From: a virus
Length of the DNA stretch: 32,367 bases
Virus record (IMG/VR): IMGVR_UViG_3300036045_000047
Span: 1 to 32,367 of that record
Strand: one strand, 5' to 3'
Shown here: positions 2,426-30,523 of the stretch, piece by piece
Layout: each line of letters begins with the position of its first letter
How positions within the stretch are numbered: position 1 is the first letter of the stretch
Made by a program: the position numbers and the translations under genes
Notes under the pieces: model-generated
What the model was told of the DNA's origin: nothing
Databases searched by the model: none
What the model saw: the letters and a program-made list of their open reading frames with translations, nothing else

Positions 2426-4543
2426 ATGGCTGGACCCAAGCGGAAGCCAGAGCCCATCGTAGCCCTCGACCCGGTAGCCTACAAGCAGCTTCGGGAGATG
2501 GAGCAGAAGGCCAACGGCGACCCCGAAAAGATGGGGGAGGAGATGGAGAAGCGCGACGGGGGCACCCTCGGGCTCATCCTGAAGTCCCTCCAGGGCGTTC
2601 AGCGCCTGCAGGCCGACCGGCTCTCGTTCGAGGTCGACCCGTCCCCGCAGTATCAGACCTACGCGGGCCTCTACCGCAACAAGTCCAACCTCACCCCGGA
2701 CCACATCATCAAGCGCGTCATCGGCCCCTCCGGTGACGACCTGGTATGCCAGATCCTGCAGGCGCGCTCCAACCACCTCGCCTCGTTCGGTCGCCCGCGC
2801 ATGTCGCGCTTCTCGAACGGGTTCGAGCTTGAGGAGATCCCGGGGGTCAACCTCCCGGACGAGAAGGAAGCTCAGCGCAAGCTGAACGACCGCATCGAGG
2901 CCGCCAAGAAGATCATCTGGAACTGCGGTCTTGGACCTGCCCGCAAGGAGTACTACCAGCCCAACTTCTCCCAGTACCTGAAGATGATCACCCGTGATGG
3001 CTGCGCGTTCGGCCGGTTCGCGACCGAGATCTTGACGGTTCCGGACCCCGCCACCGGCAAGGAGAAGTTCTACGGGTTCCGCCCGGCCGACGCCGGCACG
3101 ATCTACCACGTCACGCCCGACAAGGAAGAGGACCAGTCGGTCCGCCAGAAGGGCATCCAGCTCCTCGAGCAGCTCCGCAACACGAAGATCGACTCCTCGA
3201 AGTACAAGGAGCAGAAGTACAAGTGGGTCCAGGTCATCGACGGCGTGCCCGACCAGGGTTTCTCCGCCGAGGAGATGATCGTCTACAACCTGTACCCGAC
3301 CACCAACATCGAGTACAACGGGTACCCGCTCTCCCCGATCGACCAGTGCCTGAACGCGATCGTGACGCACATCAACATCACGATCCACAACAAGCTCTAC
3401 TTCCAGAACGGCCGCGCCGCTCGCGGGATGATCGTCTTCAAGTCGGACAACATCGACGAGGCGACGGTCCAGAAGATCAGGCTTCAGTTCCACCAGTCGA
3501 TCAACGCGGCCCAGAACAGCTGGCGCATGCCCGTGTTCGGGATCGGCTCAGACGACGCGATCGACTGGACGTCGATCGACGTGACCGGCCGCGACTCCGA
3601 GTTCCAGTACCTGATGGACCAGAACGCCCGGGTGATCCTCTCGAGCTTCCAGATGAGCCCCGAGGAGCTGCCTGGCTACGCGCACCTGTCGCGCGGCACC
3701 AACACTCAGGCGTTGTCCGAGTCCGACAACGAGTGGAAGCTGACGGCCGCCCGCGACGTCGGGCTGCGCCCGCTGATCTCCGACATCCAGGACTTCCTGA
3801 ACACCCACATCCTGCCGCTCATCGACCCAGAGCTGGCCAAGACTCACCGGATCATCCTGGCCGGCATCGATAAGGAAGGCCCCGAGAAGGAGGCTGCCCG
3901 CCTCCAGACCGACATGAACATCCACATGTCGATGAACGACGTCCTCCAGGAGGTCGAGAAGGAGCTTCTCCCCGAGGGGCTCGGCGGCCGGATGCCGCTC
4001 AACCAGATCTTTCACCAGCTGGTCCTTACCCCGTACCTGACGGTCGGGGAGATCCTCGAGAACTTCTTCGGCCGCAAAGGCGCGGCGGCGGACCCCCGCT
4101 ACAACTACGTCCGCGACCCGTTCTGGGTCCAGAACCAGCAACTCCTCGTCCAGCAGGCCCAGATGGCCATGCAGGCCCAGATGCAACAGCAGCAGATGAT
4201 GATGCAGCAGGCGGCCGGCGGCGACCCGAACGATCCGGAGGGTGGCGGGGACGACGGCGGCGGCCCGGGTGAACCTCCTCCGTCTGACGAGCCAGCTCCT
4301 CCTGGCGCCGACAAGACCGAGAAGGCCGAGGTGGCCGCCCGTAACCTCCGGAAGCGCGAGGAGTGGGTCGCCCAGAACATCGTGGCGCTCGACAAGACGA
4401 TCGAAGCTAACGGCCGCAAGATCAGCAAGATGATCCTGAAGCGTCACCAGGAGATCGTCGACCGGCACATGGCCAGCTGGGAGAAGAGCAGCCGTAGGGC
4501 GCTCCGGGAGATCACCAAGATCGTCGACGGCAAGAAGGACTGA
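2426..4543 (+). CDS. Portal protein
   Basis: This is the dodecameric portal that seeds head assembly and forms the DNA entry channel at the vertex. The protein has 705 residues, typical of large portal families. It sits between terminase and a Mu gpF-like minor head protein, which is the diagnostic position. The central region (about residues 80-480) is a mixed alpha/beta core. The region near residue 570-590 is extremely Gln/Met-rich and is followed by a Gly/Asp/Pro-rich acidic linker and a basic helical tail. Low-complexity C-termini of this kind are common in portals. The start ATG is preceded by GGGGAG at 2414-2419. The stop overlaps the next ATG (TGATG), which suggests translational coupling. 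Family membership rests on size, composition and context rather than a short signature motif. Confidence 0.85.
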   Translation: MAGPKRKPEPIVALDPVAYKQLREMEQKANGDPEKMGEEMEKRDGGTLGLILKSLQGVQRLQADRLSFEVDPSPQYQTYAGLYRNKSNLTPDHIIKRVIGPSGDDLVCQILQARSNHLASFGRPRMSRFSNGFELEEIPGVNLPDEKEAQRKLNDRIEAAKKIIWNCGLGPARKEYYQPNFSQYLKMITRDGCAFGRFATEILTVPDPATGKEKFYGFRPADAGTIYHVTPDKEEDQSVRQKGIQLLEQLRNTKIDSSKYKEQKYKWVQVIDGVPDQGFSAEEMIVYNLYPTTNIEYNGYPLSPIDQCLNAIVTHINITIHNKLYFQNGRAARGMIVFKSDNIDEATVQKIRLQFHQSINAAQNSWRMPVFGIGSDDAIDWTSIDVTGRDSEFQYLMDQNARVILSSFQMSPEELPGYAHLSRGTNTQALSESDNEWKLTAARDVGLRPLISDIQDFLNTHILPLIDPELAKTHRIILAGIDKEGPEKEAARLQTDMNIHMSMNDVLQEVEKELLPEGLGGRMPLNQIFHQLVLTPYLTVGEILENFFGRKGAAADPRYNYVRDPFWVQNQQLLVQQAQMAMQAQMQQQQMMMQQAAGGDPNDPEGGGDDGGGPGEPPPSDEPAPPGADKTEKAEVAARNLRKREEWVAQNIVALDKTIEANGRKISKMILKRHQEIVDRHMASWEKSSRRALREITKIVDGKKD

Positions 4544-5364: not shown

Positions 5365-5916
5365 ATGGCCGGCTCCATCTACCTGATCACGAACAAGTTG
5401 AATGGGAACGTGTATGTCGGCAAGACGATGGTTTCTCCCCACGTCCGATGGTTGCACCATAACACCATGGCGCGACACGGAAGCCAAGCTCCGGTGCATG
5501 CCGCGATCCGGAAGTACGGGGCCGACAGCTTTAGCCTGACGGTTGTTGATGAGGCTGAGACCAGTCGGAGCCTGAACGCCAAGGAGCGACGCTACATCAA
5601 GATGTTCAAGCGTGAAGGCAGATCTTACAACGCCACCTTGGGCGGCGACGGGGTACTCGGGGCTGTGAGATCGGTTGAATCTTGCCTGAAGGCTTCGTTG
5701 GCCCTGAGCGGAGCCGGCGCCCAGCCTAAAACTCACGGGCACGCCCGGCCTAGCGCCAGAAAACCCGTCGTTGGGGTATCACTCCTCGACGGCCGTGAAG
5801 TTCGTTACGAGTTTAGTCGTCAGGCTCAGGCTGACGGCTTTTCTGCCTCTAAGGTGACGGAGTGCTGCTTGGGTCGACGTAAGGTCCATCGCGGTTTCCA
5901 GTGGAGGTACGCATGA
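5365..5916 (+). CDS. GIY-YIG homing endonuclease, free-standing
   Basis: This is a site-specific nuclease that promotes its own spread by cutting alleles lacking it. In the 183-residue protein, residues 4-20 give the degenerate GIY...YIG pair (SIYLIT ... VYVGKT). The catalytic Arg candidate is R28 in HVRW, and NAKERRYI supplies the Glu helix. The C-terminal 50 residues end in FSASKVTECCLGRRK...GFQWRY, which resembles the small DNA-binding repeat (IENR1/NUMOD type) of phage homing nucleases. No intron ends are visible. The gene stands between the minor head protein and the protease, and its stop overlaps the next start (ATGA), so it does not interrupt expression. Codon use is more AT-tolerant than in the head genes. 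A CCTAATCT motif lies directly upstream. Confidence 0.88.
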   Translation: MAGSIYLITNKLNGNVYVGKTMVSPHVRWLHHNTMARHGSQAPVHAAIRKYGADSFSLTVVDEAETSRSLNAKERRYIKMFKREGRSYNATLGGDGVLGAVRSVESCLKASLALSGAGAQPKTHGHARPSARKPVVGVSLLDGREVRYEFSRQAQADGFSASKVTECCLGRRKVHRGFQWRYA

Positions 5917-7577
5917 TCATTGACATGCCGATCACCACCCAGACCGTCGACAGTTCGGGTGAGATTCTTCACCTGAAGGGTTTGGACATCTCTGACTTCA
6001 ACGATGGCCGCGCGTTCGCCAACTTTGAGCACAACAATGATCACGCCGATAACATCGTAGGCAAGTTTGTGTTCGCTAAGAAGATTTTTAATTCTGGCGA
6101 CTGCGCTACCGAGCGTCAAAAGATGTACTGGGAGAAACTGCAGACCCCTTTCTTGTATGGGGTCTGCGAGCTGTTCGACCAGGAAGGCCATCCTGGCGCC
6201 GTAGCGATCGCAGCTATGATCAGGTACTTCGTGAAGCGCAAGGAACCCGTGATGGTCGGCGCCTCGATCGAAGGCCAGACCCTTGAGCGCAAGGATGGCG
6301 ACCTGCTGCGCACGGTTGGACGCCGTACCGCCCTGACTTTGCGGCCATGTAACAGGCAGTGTTGGACCGACTTCCTTGGGGAAGGCGAAGCCTCCGACAA
6401 GTTCATGAAATCCATGGAAGACGGGCTCGATCAAGAGCGCTTGGTGACCGTAGACTCCTCGATCGTCGAGGACATGGACACCGGCGATGTCGTCCAGGAC
6501 CTCAAGAAGGCGCTCGAGGCCCTCAACAAGACCCTGACGGCCGGCACCTACGCGGGGACCGCCCCCGAGGGGCTTACCGGTGGCGCCGCCCTTCAGGTCG
6601 AGGATCGTGGGCTCCGGAACCGTATGAAGGCCGTCTATCGGGACTGGGATCGCCGTCGACCGCTCCGCGAAGTCCTGAAGGCTGCGCTCCCGGACGTCGC
6701 CGACAGCTACGTGGACCACTTCGTCGATCTCACCCGGGATCTGGCCCTCAAGAAGGGGCTCCCCCACGAGAACCTCACCAGGGTGTCCGCCCAGCACTCC
6801 CTTGGGGCCGACGACAACGATGACCAGAAGAAGCTGCTCGAGGGGCTCTACTGGGACCAGTCGAAGCCCTTCCAGCCAAGCCATCCGCAGCACTCCGCCG
6901 AGATCCGCTCGCTACAGAACGATGCGGGAAAACGGGTCCTCGTGAAGCTCAACCGTGCCGCGCCGACCACCGCTAACCAGACCGCGACCGCGTATTATCG
7001 TCTCGCCAAGGACTTCTACGGGATGGGCGACCACGTCCCGGTCACTGCCCACTTCCGGCATGGTATGGTAAATGGTGGGATCCCCATGCAGGCCATCGAG
7101 TTCGTCGAGGGCGCCAAGACCCCGCTGGAGTCGTCGAAGATGATGCAGGATGCGTACATGAAGGCCCGTGAGGATGGCAGCATGCACAAGCTCGCCCTCA
7201 TGGACGCCATCAACGGTACAGCTGATCGACACGGCGGGAACATCATGATTCGGCCAGATGGCAAGTTGCTTCACATCGATAACGACGAGGGTATCTCTGA
7301 CATGCCGGTCGATCCCTCTTACCTGACGAGGTCGTACCTCGATAAGACCCAGCACTTTGACGGGATCGGGGAGGACACCTTACACCGCGATGCGGCTGAG
7401 TGGCTTGCCGGCCTCGATTGGCGTAAGCTTGCGGCTCACGCGCGGCGTCATGGGGTTGATCAGCCCACGATCAGCTCGATGGCTTCGAGGCTCGCGTTTC
7501 TGCAGCGTGCCGCCCGCCACGGGATGACGTTCCGGCAGATGTTCGATCACATGAAGGGCCAGGATCAGCTCGCATGA
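5913..7577 (+). CDS. Prohead protease fused to a PI3K/HipA-like kinase domain
   Basis: The 554-residue product has two parts. Residues 1-165 look like a phage head-maturation protease of the herpesvirus-assemblin fold: H40 in FEHNN and S118 in GASIEG, where G-x-SIEG is the usual nucleophile motif. Residues 197-230 repeat the N-terminal peptide of the major capsid protein. Residues about 330-500 resemble a protein/lipid-kinase-like fold: K345 in VLVKL, the catalytic loop D438-R-H-G-G-N443, and a metal motif HIDND with D456/D458. This pattern is close to PI3/4-kinases and HipA. Start ATG 5913 is chosen over GTG 5901 because GGAGG at 5903-5907 precedes it and ATGA overlaps the upstream stop. Base composition changes near 6480. 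The protease role is likely; kinase activity and its substrate are unproven. Confidence 0.8.
   Translation: MIIDMPITTQTVDSSGEILHLKGLDISDFNDGRAFANFEHNNDHADNIVGKFVFAKKIFNSGDCATERQKMYWEKLQTPFLYGVCELFDQEGHPGAVAIAAMIRYFVKRKEPVMVGASIEGQTLERKDGDLLRTVGRRTALTLRPCNRQCWTDFLGEGEASDKFMKSMEDGLDQERLVTVDSSIVEDMDTGDVVQDLKKALEALNKTLTAGTYAGTAPEGLTGGAALQVEDRGLRNRMKAVYRDWDRRRPLREVLKAALPDVADSYVDHFVDLTRDLALKKGLPHENLTRVSAQHSLGADDNDDQKKLLEGLYWDQSKPFQPSHPQHSAEIRSLQNDAGKRVLVKLNRAAPTTANQTATAYYRLAKDFYGMGDHVPVTAHFRHGMVNGGIPMQAIEFVEGAKTPLESSKMMQDAYMKAREDGSMHKLALMDAINGTADRHGGNIMIRPDGKLLHIDNDEGISDMPVDPSYLTRSYLDKTQHFDGIGEDTLHRDAAEWLAGLDWRKLAAHARRHGVDQPTISSMASRLAFLQRAARHGMTFRQMFDHMKGQDQLA
6501..6602 (+). other. Capsid-like 34-residue peptide inside the protease-kinase protein
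   Basis: Residues 197-230 match residues 5-38 of the major capsid protein at 25 of 34 positions without gaps. The core AGTYAGTAP is identical and is followed by LT, GAAL and VE. Synonymous codons differ throughout, so conservation is at the protein level. It is probably a shared scaffold-binding or cleavage segment. Confidence 0.8.
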
Positions 7578-8185
7578 TGCAGGTTTACGTCATCACCTCC
7601 GACGTCTCGTCGACCCCGCTCGCGGAGGTCCGTACAGACGGGAACCGCGTCGAGTTCATCGTCGACAACACCGACGGGGTCCTCCCCCAGGAGGTCGGCG
7701 GCAGCTACGAGCGGCTCATGAAGCTCGCGAACGGCTCGTCGCACATCAGGCTCCAGCAGCCCCAGAAGGCCACCGTCAACCTGATCCGCTACGTGATGGA
7801 CAACGGGGACGTCGTCGAGATCACGAGCGACGGCCGCACCTGCATGCTGAACGGCGAGCTGCTCGATGAGGCTCGCAAGAACGCTCTGTTCGTGGCGATC
7901 CGTCGCGGCGAGATCAAGGTGGCCAGGAAGGCTGACAAGCCGGTCCCGGTGATCCCGACGCAGCCGACCACCGCCCAGGCTGCTCCCGAGCCACCCCACC
8001 AGTCCCGAGAGGTGATCGGTCTCCTCGCGGACATGCACGCTCGTCAGAAGCAGATCGAGACCACGTACTCGGGCCGCAACGACCCCGCGATCGAGCAGGT
8101 CGACCGTAGCTACAGCGACGACCCGGCGTTCAGCAAGGCGATGGCCTACTATGCGAAGCATGGGACCGGAGGTGGTCGTGCCTGA
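7574..8185 (+). CDS. Hypothetical protein between protease and giant virion protein
   Basis: I do not recognise this 203-residue protein. The first 120 residues alternate strands and helices, with a repeated 'negotiated' pattern of short acidic turns (DGNRVEF, NGDVVEI, DGRTCML), suggesting a compact beta domain. Residues 125-150 are a Pro/Gln/Ala linker, and the tail is helical and polar. The start overlaps the upstream stop as ATGATG, and the end overlaps the start of the giant gene, so it is translationally coupled to both. A role in head assembly or in the function of the giant protein is inferred only from position. Confidence 0.75.
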   Translation: MMQVYVITSDVSSTPLAEVRTDGNRVEFIVDNTDGVLPQEVGGSYERLMKLANGSSHIRLQQPQKATVNLIRYVMDNGDVVEITSDGRTCMLNGELLDEARKNALFVAIRRGEIKVARKADKPVPVIPTQPTTAQAAPEPPHQSREVIGLLADMHARQKQIETTYSGRNDPAIEQVDRSYSDDPAFSKAMAYYAKHGTGGGRA

Positions 8186-11100
8186 CATGCCAAACCAAAC
8201 CCAGCAGCTCGAGCCCGTGACTCAGGACAACATGCTGGAGCATCCGGACACTCCTGCGCCCATGCTCCACGAGTGGATCAAGAACGCGGACTTCAGTGAT
8301 GGTGACGAGTCGTCAGAGAAGTTGATGGCGGCCGTCAAGCACCCGAACATTTCTACCGACGCCCTCAACCACCTGTACCAGCAGGTCAAGCCGCAGCAGA
8401 TGACGGCTGAGCCCAAGCGGGTCAAGTTCAAGCGCGACCACCACGAGAATCTCCTCCAAGAGGCCCTCAAGCATCCGAACTTCTCGGCCAGGGACGCTGA
8501 GGACCTGATCGCAACCCTCCACGGCAAGGAGGGGCGATGGGGCGAGAGCTTGGGAGATATCGTCGCGTCGGCCGCCAAGATCCCCGGGGTAGACCGGAAG
8601 GTTCTTCAGGAGTTGACCGAGCGCGGCATCGAGGATAACCAGCTCAAGCGCCAGGATTTCCAGACCGACCACGCCCAGAACCTAGACCCGTCCTACCTGC
8701 TCGGGCTGCTGCGCGGCGCGGGCCACTGGCAGCCCGTCACCGAGAACATGACGGAGGCTCAGAAGCGGTTCAACAACCGGGCAGGCAAGATCTACGACGT
8801 GGTCCAGCGCGGCCTCGCGAGCACGAACCTGCACACCCCCGAGAACACCGCCCAGGTGATCGCGGCCTTGCATGATCGGGTTCCTGGCGGGATCACGCCG
8901 TCGGAGCATCACCAGTTCTTCACCAACTACGTGCAGAACAACCCGCACCTTACTCATGACCAGCTCGAGAAGCTTTTCGTTGGGTCGAAGCCTGAGGACG
9001 AGGTTGGCCACAATCAGCACGACCTCCGTACCGCTATCTTGGGCCACAGGAACGTCGATCCCGGCTTCCTTGCTCGCGTGGCGACGGCTGCCAAGACTGA
9101 CCCGATGGTTCGCCAGTCTGGCCAGCATCACTATAGGTCTTTCGATGACCTGCGGGCGGAGGCGATCAAGCACCCAAGCTTCCCGGAGCAGACCAAGAAC
9201 AAGCTCGTCACGGCCGCGTCCAGCCCGGACAGCAAGCTCAGCGAGGACGTTATCGATGCCCTCATCGAGTCCCCGACGGTCACGGCCGACGATCGTCGCA
9301 AGATGTTCGCGGGTGGGGTTCGCAAGGTCCTGAACTCCAAGCAGGCCCCTCAAGACCTGATCGAGCAGGAGTTCGCGAGGAAGCGCGACGACTACCTGAA
9401 GAGCACCAACGACGCTCGTGACTTCCTCAGCATGCCGAACACCCCTGCGTCGGTGCTCCAGCAGCTGGTCAACCACAAGAACTTGAACGTCGCGTCCGAC
9501 GCTCTCCAGCACGGGAACGTCGACCGCTCGGTGGTGGACGCCGCGTTGGCCCGTAAGGCCAAGCAGGTCAACGAGGCAGCCGCCAAGCACCCGCTCGCGC
9601 CGGCCGACAAGGTCCTCGAGAACGTCCTGTCCGGGAAGACCTCCGCGCATGACCTACTGTTCGGCAGCAAGGAGAAGAAGCGCCGCAGCTGGCAGCGCCA
9701 GGAGGAGAAGCCTCAGTTCAACATGAGCGACGACGTCGCCCATAAGCTCCACGAGCGTTACCGGGGCTTCGACGACGAGCGTATCATCTCGACCGAGGGT
9801 AAGGGCGACAGCGCCTTCAACAAGTTCTTGAAGGTCAAGCACTTCCTTGCGACCAACCAGGAGGTACCCGGCTCCGTCCGAGCTGAGGCTGCCAAAGATC
9901 TGGCCGACAAGTACCAGCAGATCTCCCACGGGGAAGATCTAGGGATGGCGACCGGCCACACCGGCAACCTGGACAACGTGGTCCATAACTTGGCCGACAG
10001 CGGCAACGTGGACGCCCAGGAGGCGGTGCTCAAGACTGGCAACGTCCACCGGCTGAAGCTCGAGAGCCCGACCTATACTTCGAGCTTCATCGACAGGGCC
10101 GCCCAGGTTCTCGACGGTCCCGACGAGCACGACGAGCACGGTTCGATCGCCCACAAGATCATGAGCAACCCGAACTCCTCCGACGAGGCGTTCGAGAAGG
10201 CTGCGCTGAACCAAGGACTTCAGAAGGACCACAACAACTACGACGACCTCGTCGACAAGCGGATGGAAGGTAAGTCCGACGAGTACGTAGGCCAGTTCTT
10301 CAGCAAGCTGATGGCTCAGGGTACCTCGGGGGCCCACGAGCTGGTCGCGCGGTCCGCGTCCGCCCCGCTCGAAACCTGGGAGAAGGCGTGGCGCGCCCTT
10401 CCGGGGTCTGCCAAGGACGAGGTCGTGGGACAGTTCACCGAGCTGATGAACAGCCCCGAGATGAAGAATCGGGCGCTGTCCGGTATGTACGACTTCCGTC
10501 TCAGCGAGGACGATCGTGAGACCGCCGGCTATCGCCGGTACGACGACGTCAGGGATCCTCGTCGTGTACTCCATCGCCGCGCCTTGGCATCCTTGTCGCC
10601 CGAGGATCCAGAGGACATGGTGGCGGTCGACACCATGGTCCGACATCAGGCCCAGCTTCCGGATGATGACGAGGGCAGGCTGACTGGCAAGGACGTCGTG
10701 GACAGCCTGCAGGACGGTTTCTTCGAGCCGGCCGTGGTGCCCACGATGAACCAGAAGTTCTTCGGTGGTGACGAGCGTACGGCCCGAGAGTTTGGCGTCC
10801 CGTACGCTATGAAGGTCGCGAGCGACCAAGCAGGCAGCATTGGCCGCGACGCGCCCAACGCCATCCAGCAGCGCGAGCAGGTTGCCAAGCAGTTCATCGA
10901 GACCATCTCGACGTCTCCGGGCGGTTTTGAGAACCCCATGGCCCAGCAGAACGCGATCGCACAGCGCTGGCTGGACGTGATGGACGATGTCGACTTCCTT
11001 AAGAAGTTCAAAAACCTTCGGAACTTGAAGCTGTTCGACGGGCTGGCGAACCTCCAGGCCGCGCCCGAGTTGGCCACCAAGGTCAAGGACGTGGCGCTTC

Positions 11101-14100
11101 AGCATGGGCTCTTGTCGGACGAAGTGTCAGGCAACCTCTCGATCGAGGACCCGACCGAGTTCGGGTCGATCATGCGGTCCGCCTCCGGCAGCGACAAGGC
11201 CGGGGTCATGCAGAACACCATGGCGGTAGGTAGTGTTCATCCCGACGTGGTTAAGCTCGCGGCGGCGTACATGAGCGCCAAGAATCTCTTACCCGTCGAT
11301 CGCCTCAGGTCGTTCGGTCGTCATGGGGCCAACCGTACCCAGACACCTCCTGAGGAGCGCGCCGAGCAGCTCCAGCACGCCAAGGGTGTCATGGACAACT
11401 TCATGCGCCACGCGCTTGTTCACGACGACAGTAAGGCCGTCGGGACCGCCATCAGCAACCTCCTGAAGGATAGTGACGGTCCAGCTCAAGGTGGGTTCTA
11501 CAAGGACGAGATGCAGGACCTGGTCAACCACGCGGTGTCTAGGCTTATGCCGGAGCAGGCCGCCGACCCGCGCCGTGCGGTGCGGTCTCTCTTGAGCATC
11601 TACAACCAGGTCAACGAGAGCGATCGTGACAAGCTGCCCAAACAGCTCGTCTCGACCCTGGTTGGCAACGCCGTCCAGCAGAACGACGTGGGCCAGCTGG
11701 TCGAGATGTCCAAGCAGGGCATTGCTGATAAGCGAATTTACCAGGCGATCAAGAATAACCTGGCCAACCCGACTGCCATGACTGATGAGAACTTGGTTGA
11801 TGTGCAGTCGATGTCTCGAGACATGGACCCGAAGACGTTCCGGGCCGTCATGGACGAGTCGATCCACCGTGGCGCCAGCAACCCGACCCTTAAGGCTGCC
11901 ACGGTTCAGAATCTTGGAACTTCGACCCGGTCGGTCGGTGGCGCCTCCTCGAAGGAGGACCTGGCAGCCCATAAGCAGAACGATTACATCGTCACGAACC
12001 TGTTGGCCTACCAGGACGATCCCGTGGTCGGCGGTGCCGCAGTGGGGCACCTTTTGTACCAGATCGGGCCCGCCGCGACTGTCTCGGTAGAGCAGTCTCA
12101 AAGGATCTTCGCAGCGATCAGCAGGCCGGACGCCGAGGTGTCCGGTATGCTCGATGGCGGTCGGGTCAGGTCCGAATTGGCCAACGACCCGAAGACGATT
12201 GAAGCTGCTCAGGATGGTTGGCGCCTAGAGGCTTTGTCGAAGGCTGTCGATAAGTTCAACCCGGATACTGCCACGGTGGTCACCAACCGGGTCATGAACG
12301 CCACCCAGATGTCCCGCGAGGCCAAGGGTTGGTACGCCGCGCAGCTGATCCAGCATGACGGCATGAAGGCTGAGGACGTCACCAAGATGGCCCGGTCGGT
12401 TGGTCCGGACGCGATCCCGGAGACCATGAAGGAGATCTCGTCTCAGGCTGGCGAGGATGCTCCAGAGACCTCCCTTCATCATCTGGTCGACCCCGCCGTG
12501 GCTGACCTCCAAGAGTGGGTTGAGGGACGAAAAGGCATCTCAGCCGGCGGTCAGATGTACGATACCGACCACTGCGCCGCGATCCTCGGCCGGGTAAGCC
12601 CGCTGGTGGACGTCGTGCGCCGTTATGCCAGGGCAAACAACTACTCGAACGCTAGGGAGAAGAACGAGAAGATCGACATGATGACCGACCGCTGTCTCGG
12701 TGCGGTCAGCAAGGTCCTGGACGAGGCCGCCAAGCATGGCCAGACCTCACCGGTCGAGACCAAGACGGTTGTTAGGGTCGCGGGCGAGACGTTGAAGCAG
12801 CTCTTCTCCAAGAAGGGAGAGGCTGGCCGCGTATACACCGAGGACCAGTCCAAAGCTATCCTCGACGCGTTCTCCAAGACCAAGAGCTTCGGGGGCCTCC
12901 CTGCGACCGACGCTTCTGGCGGTCCGGTCAGCCCAGAGACACAGGCGGCGATCTTGGCCGGGTGGGTGCGGCAGGGTCGTACCTCGGACGAGTCGTGGCC
13001 TGAGATCCACGCCCAGCACCCCGAGATGGCTGTCGCGCTGTCGAACGCCAAGGACTATCCGGTCGCGGCCGTGGCGTCGATCGACATGGACCGCCTCATG
13101 GAGAGCGACCTGCCCCGCGACCATAACATCGGTGAGGTCTTGGATTCGGTCTTGGAGAACGCGGCCCCGTACGGTCGTTCCGAGCAGTATCCTCGGCTCC
13201 TCAAGAACGCCTTGGAGAGGGCCCAGAAGGGTAAGTCTGTTCTTGACTACGGGCACGCTCTCACCATCGCTCGTCACACGATCCGGTCGGCCCCCAACGG
13301 GGTGAGCGCGGAGCAGTTGATGGCCCTCGAACATGGGACCAGCCGGAACGATATGATGAACTCGAAGATCGTCCAGGATGCCATGATCGCTGGTGCCGGC
13401 GGCAAGGAGTACCTGGACCACGTCATGCGGTCGGCGAACGTGACGGTCTTGGAAGGTGAACCAGATCAGCGGCAAGCGCTCCTTGAGTCCGCAGCTACGT
13501 CCCCGCACCTGGACGAGAAGCATGCCAACGCCCTGATCGACGCCCATCTGGCCAGCCACGGCAGCATGAAGCGCGGGACCATCCTGGACAAGCTCTGCTC
13601 CAATCAGATGGCCCCGAAGTCTGCGCTCGAGCGACTCTACAGCTTGCACGAGAAGGGCGAGGTCGCGATCTTCGGGGCCGCCCTGAACAAGCTTGCGGCC
13701 AACGGAAACGTACCCCGCGAGGTGTTCGACAAGACCGCCGTAGCCCTTGACCTGCACGACGCCTCGGTCACCAAGCGCCAGCTCGACAATCCTTGTCTCA
13801 GGAACGGTTCCTTCGGGATCGACGCCTTCATGTCACTCCCGGACGCCCGGGACGTTCCCGAGAAGTTCCACCTTAACCAGCAGCAGGGCGCAGCCGGTGG
13901 AGCGGCTCCTGGCCGGGTCGACAAGAACAAGCTGATCGACAGCGCCAGGTATTCTGCCTCTCACGCGCGACTCCGCCAGGTGCTGACCAAGATCCCGGCA
14001 GAAGGTACCAGCTGGGTGGACTTCAAGCGGGCCAACAAGCAGATGGAGAGCTGGCCAGAGACCAGGAAGCTCTTCGAGGGCAAGATGGGGCCGGCCGACC

Positions 14101-14855
14101 GGGTCACCCCGGAGGACGTTGAGCGCACCATGCGCGCCTACCCCTCCAACGCGTTCGGGGTCACCTACACCGACTGGACCGGCGCGCAGCGCCACATGGA
14201 AAGCTCGAACGACGACAACTTCAACAACCTGGTCATGCAGCTGAACACCTCGGACGAGCTGCACCACGAGATGGCCAAGGATCCGAAGCTCTTCCAGTTC
14301 TTCCAGTTCGTCCAGGAGTCGGCCAACTACAGCTCTCACCCGGTCAACCCCCACTGCGTCGGCTGGACCCGTCTCGACGTGTCGGGCGGCAAGGAAGGCT
14401 GGGTCGTCGAGGAGTTCCAGTCTGACTTCAGCTCCCGGCTGCGCCAGGACGTCGAGAAGATCACGGTGGACGTCCAGAAGCGCCTACGCGAGGAGGCCGG
14501 GATCCACCTCACCCCCGAGGAGATTATCGACTACACCGGGAAGATAGAGAAGATCGTGTCTGGCTGGTACCACGCCGCGCTCCACGGGATCGAGGACCTG
14601 GCCAGGAAGCAGGGGGTCAAGAACCTCTACATCCACGGCCAGCACGTTCGGGCCAAGCTCTCCGGGATGAACACCGATCGCTCCTACCCGGTCAAGCTGA
14701 CCGAGATGTACCACAAGGAGCCTCCGAAGTTCGGCTACAAGGAGTGCCAGTATACCGATTACCCCAACTGGAGCAAGTCGATGGTCGAGGACATGAAGTC
14801 CCTCAGCCAGGACCCCAAGAAGAACGCTCTCCAGTGCTGGCGCAAGCGGCTCTGA
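8178..14855 (+). CDS. Giant virion-associated protein with HPN repeats and a C-terminal polyvalent-type domain
   Basis: The product is about 2225 residues from GTG 8178. I prefer that start because GGAGG at 8168-8172 is 5 nt away and it overlaps the upstream stop (GTGCCTGA); ATG 8151 and ATG 8187 are alternatives. The first 500 residues contain repeated helical units marked HPN/HPD/HPS (EHPDTP, KHPNIS, KHPNFS, KHPSFP), like HEAT or leucine-rich-variant repeats. The rest is mainly helical, without membrane segments. Near the C-terminus CVGWTRL is followed by VVEEFQSD (E2078-D2083) and then IEDLARKQGVKNLYIHG. This resembles the 'EIQSD' domain of large phage polyvalent proteins. No RNA polymerase or peptidoglycan hydrolase motifs were seen. 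An ejected internal protein or a large structural element is plausible; the function is unknown. Confidence 0.85.
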   Translation: MPDMPNQTQQLEPVTQDNMLEHPDTPAPMLHEWIKNADFSDGDESSEKLMAAVKHPNISTDALNHLYQQVKPQQMTAEPKRVKFKRDHHENLLQEALKHPNFSARDAEDLIATLHGKEGRWGESLGDIVASAAKIPGVDRKVLQELTERGIEDNQLKRQDFQTDHAQNLDPSYLLGLLRGAGHWQPVTENMTEAQKRFNNRAGKIYDVVQRGLASTNLHTPENTAQVIAALHDRVPGGITPSEHHQFFTNYVQNNPHLTHDQLEKLFVGSKPEDEVGHNQHDLRTAILGHRNVDPGFLARVATAAKTDPMVRQSGQHHYRSFDDLRAEAIKHPSFPEQTKNKLVTAASSPDSKLSEDVIDALIESPTVTADDRRKMFAGGVRKVLNSKQAPQDLIEQEFARKRDDYLKSTNDARDFLSMPNTPASVLQQLVNHKNLNVASDALQHGNVDRSVVDAALARKAKQVNEAAAKHPLAPADKVLENVLSGKTSAHDLLFGSKEKKRRSWQRQEEKPQFNMSDDVAHKLHERYRGFDDERIISTEGKGDSAFNKFLKVKHFLATNQEVPGSVRAEAAKDLADKYQQISHGEDLGMATGHTGNLDNVVHNLADSGNVDAQEAVLKTGNVHRLKLESPTYTSSFIDRAAQVLDGPDEHDEHGSIAHKIMSNPNSSDEAFEKAALNQGLQKDHNNYDDLVDKRMEGKSDEYVGQFFSKLMAQGTSGAHELVARSASAPLETWEKAWRALPGSAKDEVVGQFTELMNSPEMKNRALSGMYDFRLSEDDRETAGYRRYDDVRDPRRVLHRRALASLSPEDPEDMVAVDTMVRHQAQLPDDDEGRLTGKDVVDSLQDGFFEPAVVPTMNQKFFGGDERTAREFGVPYAMKVASDQAGSIGRDAPNAIQQREQVAKQFIETISTSPGGFENPMAQQNAIAQRWLDVMDDVDFLKKFKNLRNLKLFDGLANLQAAPELATKVKDVALQHGLLSDEVSGNLSIEDPTEFGSIMRSASGSDKAGVMQNTMAVGSVHPDVVKLAAAYMSAKNLLPVDRLRSFGRHGANRTQTPPEERAEQLQHAKGVMDNFMRHALVHDDSKAVGTAISNLLKDSDGPAQGGFYKDEMQDLVNHAVSRLMPEQAADPRRAVRSLLSIYNQVNESDRDKLPKQLVSTLVGNAVQQNDVGQLVEMSKQGIADKRIYQAIKNNLANPTAMTDENLVDVQSMSRDMDPKTFRAVMDESIHRGASNPTLKAATVQNLGTSTRSVGGASSKEDLAAHKQNDYIVTNLLAYQDDPVVGGAAVGHLLYQIGPAATVSVEQSQRIFAAISRPDAEVSGMLDGGRVRSELANDPKTIEAAQDGWRLEALSKAVDKFNPDTATVVTNRVMNATQMSREAKGWYAAQLIQHDGMKAEDVTKMARSVGPDAIPETMKEISSQAGEDAPETSLHHLVDPAVADLQEWVEGRKGISAGGQMYDTDHCAAILGRVSPLVDVVRRYARANNYSNAREKNEKIDMMTDRCLGAVSKVLDEAAKHGQTSPVETKTVVRVAGETLKQLFSKKGEAGRVYTEDQSKAILDAFSKTKSFGGLPATDASGGPVSPETQAAILAGWVRQGRTSDESWPEIHAQHPEMAVALSNAKDYPVAAVASIDMDRLMESDLPRDHNIGEVLDSVLENAAPYGRSEQYPRLLKNALERAQKGKSVLDYGHALTIARHTIRSAPNGVSAEQLMALEHGTSRNDMMNSKIVQDAMIAGAGGKEYLDHVMRSANVTVLEGEPDQRQALLESAATSPHLDEKHANALIDAHLASHGSMKRGTILDKLCSNQMAPKSALERLYSLHEKGEVAIFGAALNKLAANGNVPREVFDKTAVALDLHDASVTKRQLDNPCLRNGSFGIDAFMSLPDARDVPEKFHLNQQQGAAGGAAPGRVDKNKLIDSARYSASHARLRQVLTKIPAEGTSWVDFKRANKQMESWPETRKLFEGKMGPADRVTPEDVERTMRAYPSNAFGVTYTDWTGAQRHMESSNDDNFNNLVMQLNTSDELHHEMAKDPKLFQFFQFVQESANYSSHPVNPHCVGWTRLDVSGGKEGWVVEEFQSDFSSRLRQDVEKITVDVQKRLREEAGIHLTPEEIIDYTGKIEKIVSGWYHAALHGIEDLARKQGVKNLYIHGQHVRAKLSGMNTDRSYPVKLTEMYHKEPPKFGYKECQYTDYPNWSKSMVEDMKSLSQDPKKNALQCWRKRL

Positions 14856-15956: not shown

Positions 15957-16814
15957 ATGGGAGCAGCTGCTAAGAAACAGGTTGACCTCAACGACCAGGA
16001 GCTGGACGCGATCCTCGCGTCCGTCGAAGCTTCCCTGGAGAAGGCTGACAAGCTCGCGAAGAACCTTCCGAGCCAGCCGAACGGCGGTCAGCCGATGAAG
16101 AAGGACGACGAGCCGGGCGCCAAGAAGCCCGGTGAAGAAGATGCTCCCCCGGCCCCTCCGGCCGGCGACGAGCCGCCCGCCGACGGCGGAGCCCCCGATG
16201 CGGGCGCTCCTCCGGCCGATGCCGGCGCTCCCGACCAGGGCGCTCCCGCTCCGGGCGAAGGTGAGCTTGCCGGCGAGGCCGAGCAGCCCCTCAGCGACGA
16301 GGAGCTGGACCAGATCTACGGCTCCATGCAGCCCGAGGAGCTTCAGCGCCACTACATGGCGATCCGCGCTCACCTCGAGCAGGCCATGGGCGGAGCTTCC
16401 CCCGACCAGGGCGCCGCGCCTGCGGCTCCCCCGGCTGCCCCTCCGGCCGCTGCGGCTGCCATGGGCAAGTCCGAAGCTCCGGTCGCCGAGAACGAGGAGT
16501 TCAAGGCTCTGAAGGCGAAGAACGAGGAACTCGAGAAGGCCATCACGACCGCCGTCAAGGCCGTTGAGCTGGTCCTCCAGCCCGCCCGTAAGAGCGCGGC
16601 CGGTCTCGAGTTCGTGAAGAAGAACGAAGAACTCGAGGGCAAGGGGTCGGAAGACCTCGGAAAGCTCTCGAAGTCCGACATCGACGGTCGGATCCGTCAG
16701 ATCGGTGCAACCAACATGACGAAGTCCGAACGGGACACCGTCAACAACTACTTGCTCCATAACGAGGGCAAGGAACGAGTCCTGGACATCATCAAGTCCA
16801 AGGGAGGCAAGTAA
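15957..16814 (+). CDS. Putative scaffolding protein
   Basis: Scaffolding proteins template the prohead shell and are removed before or during DNA packaging. This 285-residue protein has the expected profile. It is hydrophilic, with a helical N-terminus (about residues 10-40) and a long disordered Pro/Ala/Gly/Asp region (about 45-110, with many GAP and PPA units). A second helix and an Ala/Pro linker follow, then a coiled-coil-like segment (about 178-225, rich in K, E and L) and a basic C-terminal helical domain. It lies directly upstream of the capsid gene, with 1 nt between its stop and the capsid ATG. GGGAG precedes its own start. The codon repetition in 16140-16450 is low complexity, not a tandem repeat. 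The assignment rests on composition and position. Confidence 0.7.
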   Translation: MGAAAKKQVDLNDQELDAILASVEASLEKADKLAKNLPSQPNGGQPMKKDDEPGAKKPGEEDAPPAPPAGDEPPADGGAPDAGAPPADAGAPDQGAPAPGEGELAGEAEQPLSDEELDQIYGSMQPEELQRHYMAIRAHLEQAMGGASPDQGAAPAAPPAAPPAAAAAMGKSEAPVAENEEFKALKAKNEELEKAITTAVKAVELVLQPARKSAAGLEFVKKNEELEGKGSEDLGKLSKSDIDGRIRQIGATNMTKSERDTVNNYLLHNEGKERVLDIIKSKGGK

Positions 16815-16815
16815 C

Positions 16816-18219
16816 ATGGGTAACGAACTCATCAAGACCCTGGAAACCTTGGTCAAGACGCTCGAAGCCGGGACGTACGCGGGTACGGCACCGGATCGGC
16901 TCACCCAGGGCGCAGCGCTCGGCGTGGAGAACCTCGAGACCGTGATGCAGAACGTCACGTTCGACGACTCGCACATCAAGCTCCAGAAGCTCTTCTCGGT
17001 CAAGAAGGCCAAGTCCCTTCTCGTCCAGTTCAACCGGCAGCTCAGCTACGGCCGGTTCGGCGGTTCGGCCCAGCGCGAAGGCGCGGTCGGCGACGTGGAT
17101 GTCGGCGACTACCTCCGGGCGACGGTTCCGATGTGCTTCTACAGCACCCTGAAGCGCGTCACGGTCGCGGCCGACATGGTCGAGACGTTCGACGGCAAGA
17201 AGGGCACGGACCGTGAAGCCGAGAACGCCGCGATCAAGCTCGCGGCCGACGTCGAGTTCGACTCGTTCAAGGGCAAGGCCGACTTCTCGAACGCGGGCGT
17301 CTTCGACGGCAACCCGATCGCGATCGCCGAGCTTCCGAACATCCTCGGGCTCGACCCGCAGGTCCGCATGTCCGACATCATGGCGTCCACCCAGGACCTC
17401 ATGTTCGCGGCCTACGGCTCCAGCCAGTCGGTGGTCCTCAACCAGAGCGGCGCTCTCGACCAGAACATCCTGGAAGACGCGGCCCTCCGGTCCCGCCTCA
17501 ACTTCGGCAAGGCCGAGCTGATGATGGTCGACCCCGTCATCCTCTCGGGCTACAACAAGCGCGTCCTCAACTACGGGAACAACACGATCCAGCGCATCAT
17601 CCTCGCTGGCTCGGCCCAGGATGCCTCCGGCGCCGACCTCCGTCGCCAGTGGGTCTCCAGCGGCACCGTGTCCCTCGAGGACTCGATGTTCCTCCGTGGC
17701 AAGTACACCCCGAACCGTCCGACGATCGGCGCCCCCGTGGCCCCGGCGGCGTCCGGCGCCCGCGCGGGCGGCTCCTCGGCCCTCCCGGCCCTGGGCACGG
17801 CCGTGTACCTCGTCTCGGCTGAGAACGAGCGCGGCGAAGGGATCGCGGCCTCGGCCTCCGTCTCCGGCATCCTGGCCGGCGACGAGGTGACGATCACGAT
17901 CACCCACCCGGGCGGCGCGACGCACTTCAACGTGTATCGCGGCGCGACGGCGGCCTCCGCGAAGTTCATCGGACGCGTCAAGAACGACGGCTCCGGCGCT
18001 TCGTTCATCGACCTGGGCAACAAGGCTCCTGGGTTCGTCACCGGGTACCTCATCCAGAAGGACACCTGGGGACTCCACGAGCTGGCTCCCTACAGCCGCC
18101 TCAAGCTGGCCATCAGCGACCTGAGCACCCCGGAAGCCCACTTCCGGTTCCTCACGCTCTGCGGATACCAGCCCCGCAAGAACGTCATCGTCGACAACCT
18201 CACGCACGACCGGTTCTAA
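16816..18219 (+). CDS. Major capsid protein with an Ig/FN3-like insertion
   Basis: This is the shell-forming protein, probably of the HK97 fold. The 467-residue product follows the scaffold candidate and has GGGAGG before its ATG. Residues 5-38 match a segment of the protease-kinase protein, so they are probably an assembly or delta peptide removed or recognised by the protease. The body contains the strand- and helix-rich core. Residues about 300-405 begin with an Ala/Gly/Pro linker and then show a fibronectin-III or Ig-like pattern (AVYLVSAENERGEG ... FNVYRG ... IDLG). This would be a surface decoration domain encoded within the capsid protein. The stop overlaps the convergent - strand gene by 3 bases, and a terminator lies 29 bp on. 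Confidence 0.88.
   Translation: MGNELIKTLETLVKTLEAGTYAGTAPDRLTQGAALGVENLETVMQNVTFDDSHIKLQKLFSVKKAKSLLVQFNRQLSYGRFGGSAQREGAVGDVDVGDYLRATVPMCFYSTLKRVTVAADMVETFDGKKGTDREAENAAIKLAADVEFDSFKGKADFSNAGVFDGNPIAIAELPNILGLDPQVRMSDIMASTQDLMFAAYGSSQSVVLNQSGALDQNILEDAALRSRLNFGKAELMMVDPVILSGYNKRVLNYGNNTIQRIILAGSAQDASGADLRRQWVSSGTVSLEDSMFLRGKYTPNRPTIGAPVAPAASGARAGGSSALPALGTAVYLVSAENERGEGIAASASVSGILAGDEVTITITHPGGATHFNVYRGATAASAKFIGRVKNDGSGASFIDLGNKAPGFVTGYLIQKDTWGLHELAPYSRLKLAISDLSTPEAHFRFLTLCGYQPRKNVIVDNLTHDRF
16828..16929 (+). other. N-terminal capsid peptide shared with the protease
   Basis: Capsid residues 5-38 correspond to protease residues 197-230 (25 of 34 identical). A predicted amphipathic helix (LIKTLETLVKTLE) precedes AGTYAGTAP and GAAL-x-VE. 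A maturation cut after the final VE would leave a mature capsid starting near residue 39; this is inference. Confidence 0.75.
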
Positions 18220-29588: not shown

Positions 29589-29924
29589 ATGGCGCGGATC
29601 TATCGCTTCGAGGTTCAGGTCATCGAGACCATCCCGTCCCACGAGAGCTTCCCTGCCCTTGACGAGTACGGGGCGGTGATCGGCGCGTTCGCCCGCCTCC
29701 ATGGCGACCAGGTCCGAGGCTGGCTTGCCGGCGCCGACACCCCGGTAGCCCTCAAGGTCACGACCGGCGATGGGTTCTGGTTCACCCCCAGGATCGCCAA
29801 CGACGGGCTCGTGAGCCACGCGGTAGTGTCAGAGCGCAAGCTGGGCCCGATGTCCGTCCGGGTGACCGCCGCCGAGGAGGAGAACATCCCGACGGACAGC
29901 TCCGACCCGTTCGAGGTGCGCTGA
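29589..29924 (+). CDS. Hypothetical protein before the ClpP-like protease
   Basis: This 111-residue protein is strand-rich in the first part (IYRFEVQVIETI) and contains VALKVTTGDGFWFTPRI and MSVRVTAAEEE. There is no known family. GAGGAGG precedes the ATG. The stop overlaps the start of the protease gene (TGATG), so the two products are probably made together. Confidence 0.7.
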   Translation: MARIYRFEVQVIETIPSHESFPALDEYGAVIGAFARLHGDQVRGWLAGADTPVALKVTTGDGFWFTPRIANDGLVSHAVVSERKLGPMSVRVTAAEEENIPTDSSDPFEVR

Positions 29925-30523
29925 TGCCGCGCAAGTTCAGCAGGGACGAGCTGGAGAAGTTCCACGACTACGAGATCTTCGTGCCCACCCGCACGATCTA
30001 CCTCGGCTCCGTGATGGCGGACGTCGAGGGTCAAGAGTCCGGGACCGACGCCATCATGGCGGAAAAGCTCATCAAGAACATGCACTTCCTTGAGCAGCTA
30101 TCCAAGGATCCGATCACCATCATCTCGAACAACCTCGGCGGGTCGTGGCACCACGGTATGGCCATCTACGACACCATCAAGAACTCCCCGTGCTACGTCA
30201 CGATGAGGGGCTGCGGACACGTCATGAGCATGGGCTCCGTCATCCTCCAGGCCGCCGACGAGCGCGTCCTGACCCGGGAGGCCGTCGTGATGGTCCACGA
30301 CGGCTACGAGGGGTTCATCGGGATCCCGAAGTCCTTCGAGAGCTGGGGCCGAGAGAGCAAGCGCGTCCGGGAGCGGATGTACGAGATCTACGCGGAGCGG
30401 TCTGGGCGCCCGCCCGAGTACTGGGAGGAGGTGTGCTCCAAGGACACCTTCATGACCTCCCACCAGGCGGTCGCGGAGGGGCTGGCCGACAGGGTCGAGC
30501 TGCCGGGCGGGGAAGAAGAGTAG
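29924..30523 (+). CDS. ClpP-like serine protease
   Basis: ClpP-family proteases form barrels that degrade or process proteins. The 199-residue product, about the length of bacterial ClpP, has the triad in the right order and spacing: S102 in VMSMGS, H125 in VMVHDG and D174 in KDTF. The Gly-rich stretch NNLGGSWHHGMAIYD corresponds to the substrate-binding strand. Phages use such proteins either as prohead proteases or to modulate host Clp. Here a separate head-maturation protease exists at 5913, so the role is open. It directly precedes virion genes. Confidence 0.85.
   Translation: MPRKFSRDELEKFHDYEIFVPTRTIYLGSVMADVEGQESGTDAIMAEKLIKNMHFLEQLSKDPITIISNNLGGSWHHGMAIYDTIKNSPCYVTMRGCGHVMSMGSVILQAADERVLTREAVVMVHDGYEGFIGIPKSFESWGRESKRVRERMYEIYAERSGRPPEYWEEVCSKDTFMTSHQAVAEGLADRVELPGGEEE

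Follow-up and report, generated by a model that had tools for sequence, protein, structure and literature searches.

The window analysed here is the whole of a 32,367-base uncultured-virus fragment (IMG/VR record IMGVR_UViG_3300036045_000047, positions 1 to 32,367). It encodes a single protein in which a predicted assemblin-like prohead protease is joined to a domain resembling phosphatidylinositol 3- and 4-kinases (PI3/PI4-kinases). A copy of the N-terminus of the phage's own major capsid protein lies between the two halves, and this capsid tag between protease and kinase is a new observation of the present study. We propose that the maturation protease has been extended by a PI4-kinase-like protein kinase that would be released by self-cleavage, carried in the virion as cargo and ejected as an effector, and we give this proposal about an even chance of being right.

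The open reading frame (ORF) at 5913-7577 is uninterrupted, with 0 internal stop codons. A preliminary description of the window had read it as an assemblin-like protease fused in one frame to a kinase, and this was borne out by the intact 554-amino acid frame and by collinear relatives on independent contigs, with 46% identity in L094 (residues 3-536), 40% in L095 (residues 7-546) and 39% in L097 (residues 8-517; L numbers are our labels for related loci). The residues that it had singled out, namely H40, S118 (in GASIEG), K345, D438-R-H-G-G-N443 and HIDND (454-458), are present as described. The choice of the ATG at 5913 as start codon is supported by a GGAGG sequence at 5903-5907. The features of the gene are as follows.

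5903-5907 (+): Shine-Dalgarno sequence GGAGG, 5 nucleotides upstream of the ATG at 5913
5913-7577 (+): prohead protease-kinase fusion, complete coding sequence of 554 amino acids plus stop, with collinear homologues in L094, L095 and L097
5913-6392 (+): assemblin-like prohead protease domain, residues 1-160 (H40, S118), predicted from the fold and the invariant catalytic pair
6504-6605 (+): copy of the capsid protein N-terminus, residues ~198-231, ~35 amino acids (tag profile, independent E-value 2.7e-8)
6600-6602 (+): codon of E230, the putative self-cleavage point (cut after E230), placed by analogy
6606-6764 (+): three helices that link the tag to the kinase, residues ~232-284, mostly with high predicted local distance difference test (pLDDT) scores
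6765-7574 (+): PI4-kinase-like domain, residues 285-554, from the AlphaFold model, the match to type II PI4-kinases (PI4KII), PF00454 and residue conservation
6945-6947, 7224-7226, 7239-7241 and 7278-7280 (+): codons of the key kinase residues K345, D438, N443 and D456, respectively, from conservation

Prohead protease domain

Over residues 1-282, identity was about 30% with SPO1-type proteases and 40% with a protein of Myxococcus phage Mx1 annotated as "putative prohead protease". H40 and S118 are invariant in a 41-row alignment of relatives and are also kept in SPO1. The AlphaFold model of residues 1-286 had a mean pLDDT of 83.6, with values above 90 over most of residues 1-150, and was closest to T4 gp21 (5jbl; Z 11.0, root-mean-square deviation (rmsd) 2.2 Å over 117 residues), with Z scores of up to 10.6 against herpesvirus proteases (assemblins). 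The structural matches topping the list were all herpesvirus or T4 capsid proteases; Foldseek alone matched the herpesvirus assemblins weakly (E 0.013). The gene sits in the portal-scaffold-capsid block, as expected for a prohead protease. The N-terminal half is thus predicted to be an assemblin-like prohead protease, presumably catalytic.

PI4-kinase-like domain

The preliminary description had placed the C-terminal half among PI3/4-kinases and HipA, and structure prediction did yield a kinase fold. The AlphaFold model of residues 285-554, made from a 25-row alignment, had a pLDDT of 87.2 and a predicted template modelling score of 0.88. Its nearest solved structures were type II PI4-kinases (Z 18.4-18.9, 235-237 residues, rmsd ~3.1 Å) at 11-13% sequence identity, with PI4KII beta as the top match (Z 18.9, 235 aligned residues, rmsd 3.1 Å), and the match spans the whole length of the domain. 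Further structural matches were the Helicobacter pylori protein kinase CtkA (Z 13.4), the kinase-like Fam20A (Z 13.2), and PI3K, VPS34, ATM and mTOR (Z 10.8-11.8, with ATM at 11.8). The Pfam family PI3_PI4_kinase (PF00454) matched the window kinase with 31.1 bits against a curated cut-off of 27.1, and it matched 23 of 25 related kinase domains (E up to 0.1). In the family profile, DRHxxN and IDxG align with the corresponding PI3K-alpha motifs (E 3e-6). The HipA part of the earlier assignment fared less well: HipA_C gave weak matches in 6 of the 25 family members (best 0.0018), the window's own domain being unmatched, and HipA as the closest family was rejected as weaker than PF00454. HipA was not among the structural matches listed for the kinase model, an absence that carries no weight either way.

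The key residues are largely kept in 36 related kinase domains: K345 in 34, D438 in 32, N443 in 36 and D456 in 36. Neither of the outcomes that the preliminary description had named as refuting its reading, a model lacking a kinase fold or relatives without these residues, was obtained. K345 is placed as the ATP lysine solely by the model strand 57-62. D456 and D458 had both been put forward as the second aspartate; D456 stands, whereas D458 is poorly conserved (4/36). From the model, the C-terminal half is predicted to have a kinase fold of the PI3/PI4-kinase superfamily. In one close pair, the proportion of nonsynonymous differences (pN) was 0.154 in the fused kinase and 0.131 in the protease, so that the constraint on the kinase resembles that on the protease in this pair; these are raw proportions and no formal dN/dS ratio (nonsynonymous to synonymous rates) is given, because synonymous changes were saturated even in the closest pairs.

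Capsid-protein tag and putative cleavage site

Residues 191-231 of the fusion protein showed 61% identity over 41 amino acids to the start of the capsid protein encoded in the same window. A tag profile built from 86 capsid protein N-termini and run against the ORFs of 88 loci found the same segment in most proteases; elsewhere it gave chance-level matches plus one small ORF (L109:14219-14584), which starts with a capsid tag lacking the final Glu and joined to unrelated sequence. The tag is also found in the SPO1 and Exiguobacterium phage proteases. The motif can be approximated as K-[AT]-L-x-A-G-...-P-x-x-L-x-x-G-[AS]-A-L-x-x-E. The final Glu is present in 80 of 81 capsid proteins and in all 55 proteases that matched the motif; the pattern permitted other residues at that position, and the 22 of 77 proteases that did not match it were left uncounted. 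Part of the tag is disordered in the protease model (residues 211-222, pLDDT <50). The helical segment that follows is weakly conserved and aligns as the ancestral C-terminus of SPO1-type proteases.

The prohead protease gp245 of the large phage SPN3US removes its own 64-amino acid C-terminal propeptide; all its substrates are cut after Glu, and its propeptide site is of the same kind (PMC10052503). Because of this analogy, the tag may represent both a cleavable capsid N-terminus and a self-cleavage site of the protease. We infer that the protease cuts itself at E230, which would free the kinase in the prohead.

Distribution and history of the fusion

The protease-kinase fusion was found in about 20 related phages, including the isolate Mx1, whose 1239-amino acid protein carries the same kinase at its end and is annotated only as "putative prohead protease". 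The contig L005 encodes a 1569-amino acid protein ending in the same kinase. A scan with a capsid protein alignment yielded 80 further loci; viral-contig scans with a single fusion protein and with a two-row kinase alignment found nothing. Among the proteins recovered, 18 distinct protease-kinases have complete kinase domains. In the kinase tree, these 18 fused kinases form one group (Shimodaira-Hasegawa-like approximate likelihood ratio test (SH-aLRT) support 86), distinct from the kinases of separate genes 3′ of the capsid gene, which fall into two further groups, and the fused or separate state requires one change against a mean of 12.3 for shuffled labels. Because the 18 fused kinases group together, the tree suggests, with moderate support, a single old fusion rather than repeated fusions. 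The separate genes represent two more PI4-kinase-like families, some with two copies per protein (L083:14429-18106, L071:17646-19940, L065:14828-20447, L055:14950-19152 and others).

When 40 related records were searched with the kinase profile, 20 contained a kinase and the other 20, which include long contigs of 124-177 kb, contained none; within this search, the lineage with the protease gene on the opposite strand had a kinase in none of its members. L011 and L012 have the proteases closest to that of the window in the tree, yet carry no kinase; the L011 protease is 67% identical to that of the window, in a record of 144 kb that is possibly incomplete. Because half of these related records, L011 among them, are without a kinase, the kinase module is, judged from gene content, accessory and presumably dispensable for assembly. 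The kinase profile did not confirm weak kinase matches (E 0.04 to 6) in phages of Klebsiella, Riemerella and Serratia. The Bacteroides phages DAC19 and SJC03 have a short protease and no kinase in the stretch examined. No match to the L094 homologue was found in plasmids, and bacterial genomes searched for a clue to the host gave two metagenome bins only, which are unreliable.

Other modules on the protease

Eight relatives carry a GGDEF domain (PF00990; 1.2e-14 for L055) at the end of the protease, in the same position as the kinase. Several of them retain separate kinases, and the long kinase-bearing proteases are usually followed by a separate GGDEF-type gene.

L055, L057, L065, L069, L070, L071, L072 and L083: GGDEF-fused protease ORFs
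L003:16127-16855 and L005:14681-15928: GGDEF (diguanylate cyclase-type) genes directly after the protease gene
L003, L005, L055, L057, L059, L062, L064, L065, L069, L072 and L077: protease ORFs with a ~350-amino acid middle module

The kinase tree argues against kinase and GGDEF simply exchanging places between the protease and separate genes. Since the separate kinases form two other groups, the GGDEF-bearing proteases would have lost the fused kinase and kept others. A ParB-like segment was found within the protease polypeptide of L005 (9968-14677; PF02195 E 7e-4, below cut-off) and, by eye, in that of L099. The ~350-amino acid middle module common to many protease ORFs has GLAPKT...VPDTH motifs; it resembles helix-hairpin-helix DNA glycosylases by eye and had no Pfam match, and we do not claim this label.

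In the relatives' proteases, the GGDEF, ParB-like and kinase modules lie behind the tag or beside it, and they look like effectors rather than assembly parts. We tentatively consider it possible that the maturation protease is a general carrier of exchangeable signalling enzymes placed behind a capsid maturation signal, one self-cleavage freeing each of them for delivery. If so, the phage would introduce signalling by a kinase or a second messenger into the cell.

Putative role of the kinase

In the proposed mechanism, the protease with its kinase extension would be built into the prohead core. Once active, it would cleave two matching tags, the one at the N-terminus of the capsid protein and the one within its own polypeptide, where the cut would fall after E230. 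The self-cut would free a C-terminal piece of about 36 kDa (helices plus kinase, residues 231-554) in the shell. From its place behind the capsid tag and by analogy with other phages, the kinase probably becomes part of the virion. It would then exit with the DNA, and its ejection into the next host bacterium is plausible; there it would phosphorylate a host target, most likely a protein, in the early phase of infection. A protease piece could stay in the head, since a prohead protease has been found in purified virions of an A511-related Listeria phage (PMC12282133). We favour a carried effector over an assembly role because phages seem able to do without the kinase and some relatives have a different signalling enzyme in its place.

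Several points weigh against this proposal. The catalytic Asp is absent from 4 of the 36 related kinases, and one lineage looks degenerate in sequence: the L097 kinase has lost K345, and both L097 and L099 have His in place of D438. Cleavage fragments of prohead proteases often exit the head or are degraded. The kinase could also act in the producing cell before packaging. In addition, searches of open-access papers turned up no cleavage sites for SPO1-type capsid proteins.

A different possibility is that the kinase acts inside the prohead on the capsid, scaffold or protease and times maturation or expansion. Its tethering to the maturation protease, its production from the head gene block and the age and stability of the fusion, as seen in the single group of fused kinases, are in line with such a role. 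However, phages with a homologous capsid, protease and tag manage without a kinase, even in the contigs of 124-177 kb, and the eight relatives noted above have a GGDEF domain in its place. We therefore consider a prohead role unlikely. Slightly less favoured still is action late in the producing cell, for example in host shut-off, lysis timing or phage exclusion, with the fusion serving co-expression only. The late-gene position and the separate kinase genes 3′ of the capsid gene in relatives would fit, and such a role was proposed for a HipA-type kinase of gut phages by Benler et al. 2021 (PMC8008677), but a fusion behind the capsid tag would route the kinase to the prohead and out of the cytoplasm. 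The degenerate L097 and L099 kinases, in which pN is higher in the kinase (0.311) than in the protease (0.183), could mean that the domain has lost its kinase function and now has a structural or core-filling role; this is quite improbable for the family, since all four key residues are kept in most members, including that of the window. Finally, the type II PI4-kinase as nearest fold might point to a lipid kinase whose substrates are inositol lipids in the membrane of the host, a reading that we regard as very improbable because the fold does not set the substrate, the protein kinases CtkA and ATM and the kinase-like Fam20A match too, and inositol lipids are uncommon in bacteria.

If the carried-effector proposal is correct, fusion to the protease behind a copied capsid cleavage-type tag would be a natural way to load an enzyme into a phage head, and a PI4-kinase-like enzyme would be added to the few kinases known from phages. 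The fusion recurs across a widespread, barely studied group of uncultured phages related to Mx1. This isolate grows on a model bacterium, so that cleavage, packaging, ejection and kinase activity are directly testable. The tag also offers a concrete candidate cleavage site, E230, and is itself a candidate signal for directing proteins to the head.

Comparison with known systems

The window protease resembles SPO1 gp3.2 and SPN3US gp245 (T4 gp21/assemblin fold) in its fold, its His/Ser pair and the position of its gene between portal and capsid genes. The tag, too, is shared with SPO1 gp3.2, but that protein is 256 amino acids long, ends about 57 amino acids past the tag and has no kinase. The C-terminal domain shares the fold, the catalytic-loop Asp/Asn and the metal-binding Asp with type II PI4-kinases; unlike them, it is phage-encoded and part of a capsid protease. 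In T4, Alt and the internal proteins enter the head by means of a cleavable tag, and they are ejected after trimming by the prohead protease. The working proposed here is similar, except that protease and effector form one polypeptide and that ejection is proposed by analogy.

The polyvalent proteins that Iyer et al. 2017 (PMC5512222) described in phages and conjugative elements are likewise multidomain, packaged or expected to be so, and mix protease, kinase and ParB-like domains. In these proteins the assemblin-like peptidase comes last, at the C-terminal end; the window protein and all fused relatives have the protease at the N-terminal end. Moreover, the window protease would be the main maturation protease of the phage, and its kinase is PI4K-like. 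The polyvalent-protein kinase is described as lacking the C-terminal subdomain (PMC5512222). The window kinase matches PI4KII over its whole length.

HSTV-2 gp16 (L092:10647-12119), an archaeal tailed-virus protein from the neck-gene region, also has a PI3/PI4-kinase-like domain encoded in a virion gene block (PF00454 25.5 bits, just under cut-off). It differs in not being a protease, in its length of 490 amino acids and in its N-terminus, and by eye only it looks like a neck protein. In "Gratiaviridae" gut phages, a HipA-family kinase is likewise encoded between portal and capsid genes (PMC8008677), but as a separate gene rather than a fusion. The two related Bacteroides phages noted above have a ~290-amino acid protease without a kinase. 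PI3/PI4-kinase domains occur in other viral proteins among BFVD matches, and those in tailed-virus proteins are already auto-annotated in UniProt; one 584-amino acid match from an uncultured phage, unconfirmed at the sequence level, may be a further protease-kinase.

The preliminary description knew of no established account of such a fusion, and we found no description of the protease-PI4-kinase combination in the open-access literature searched; the same architecture was, however, already present, unrecognised, in the public genome of Mx1, whose genome paper mentions neither protease nor kinase. The component parts are thus of known kinds, while their combination is apparently undescribed in that literature.

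Genomic context

The other head genes of the window are listed here.

65-1405: terminase, large-subunit family match
2426-4543 (+): portal protein (PF04860 and phrog_12), upstream of the protease-kinase gene
15957-16814 (+): probable scaffold, acidic and of low complexity, directly 5′ of the capsid gene and in the same place as the SPO1 scaffold gene
16816-18219 (+): major capsid protein (phrog_752 2e-35), its N-terminus (16816-16932) carrying the tag

The capsid protein showed 54-55% identity to those of Mx1 and L005. The scaffold candidate had no family match in Pfam and phrog profile searches, and defence-system models gave no match. A GIY-YIG homing endonuclease gene (5365-5916, +) is inserted immediately 5′ of the protease gene, and its stop codon overlaps the protease start (ATGA). 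Between the protease-kinase and scaffold genes, the window encodes a 2234-amino acid protein (8151-14855, +) without any Pfam match. Relatives of about 2000 amino acids are found at the same place in L009, L010, L013 and L014, with the best conservation in the last 300 amino acids (39% in L013). The window also encodes a ClpP-like protease (29924-30523, +; PF00574 E 4e-30).
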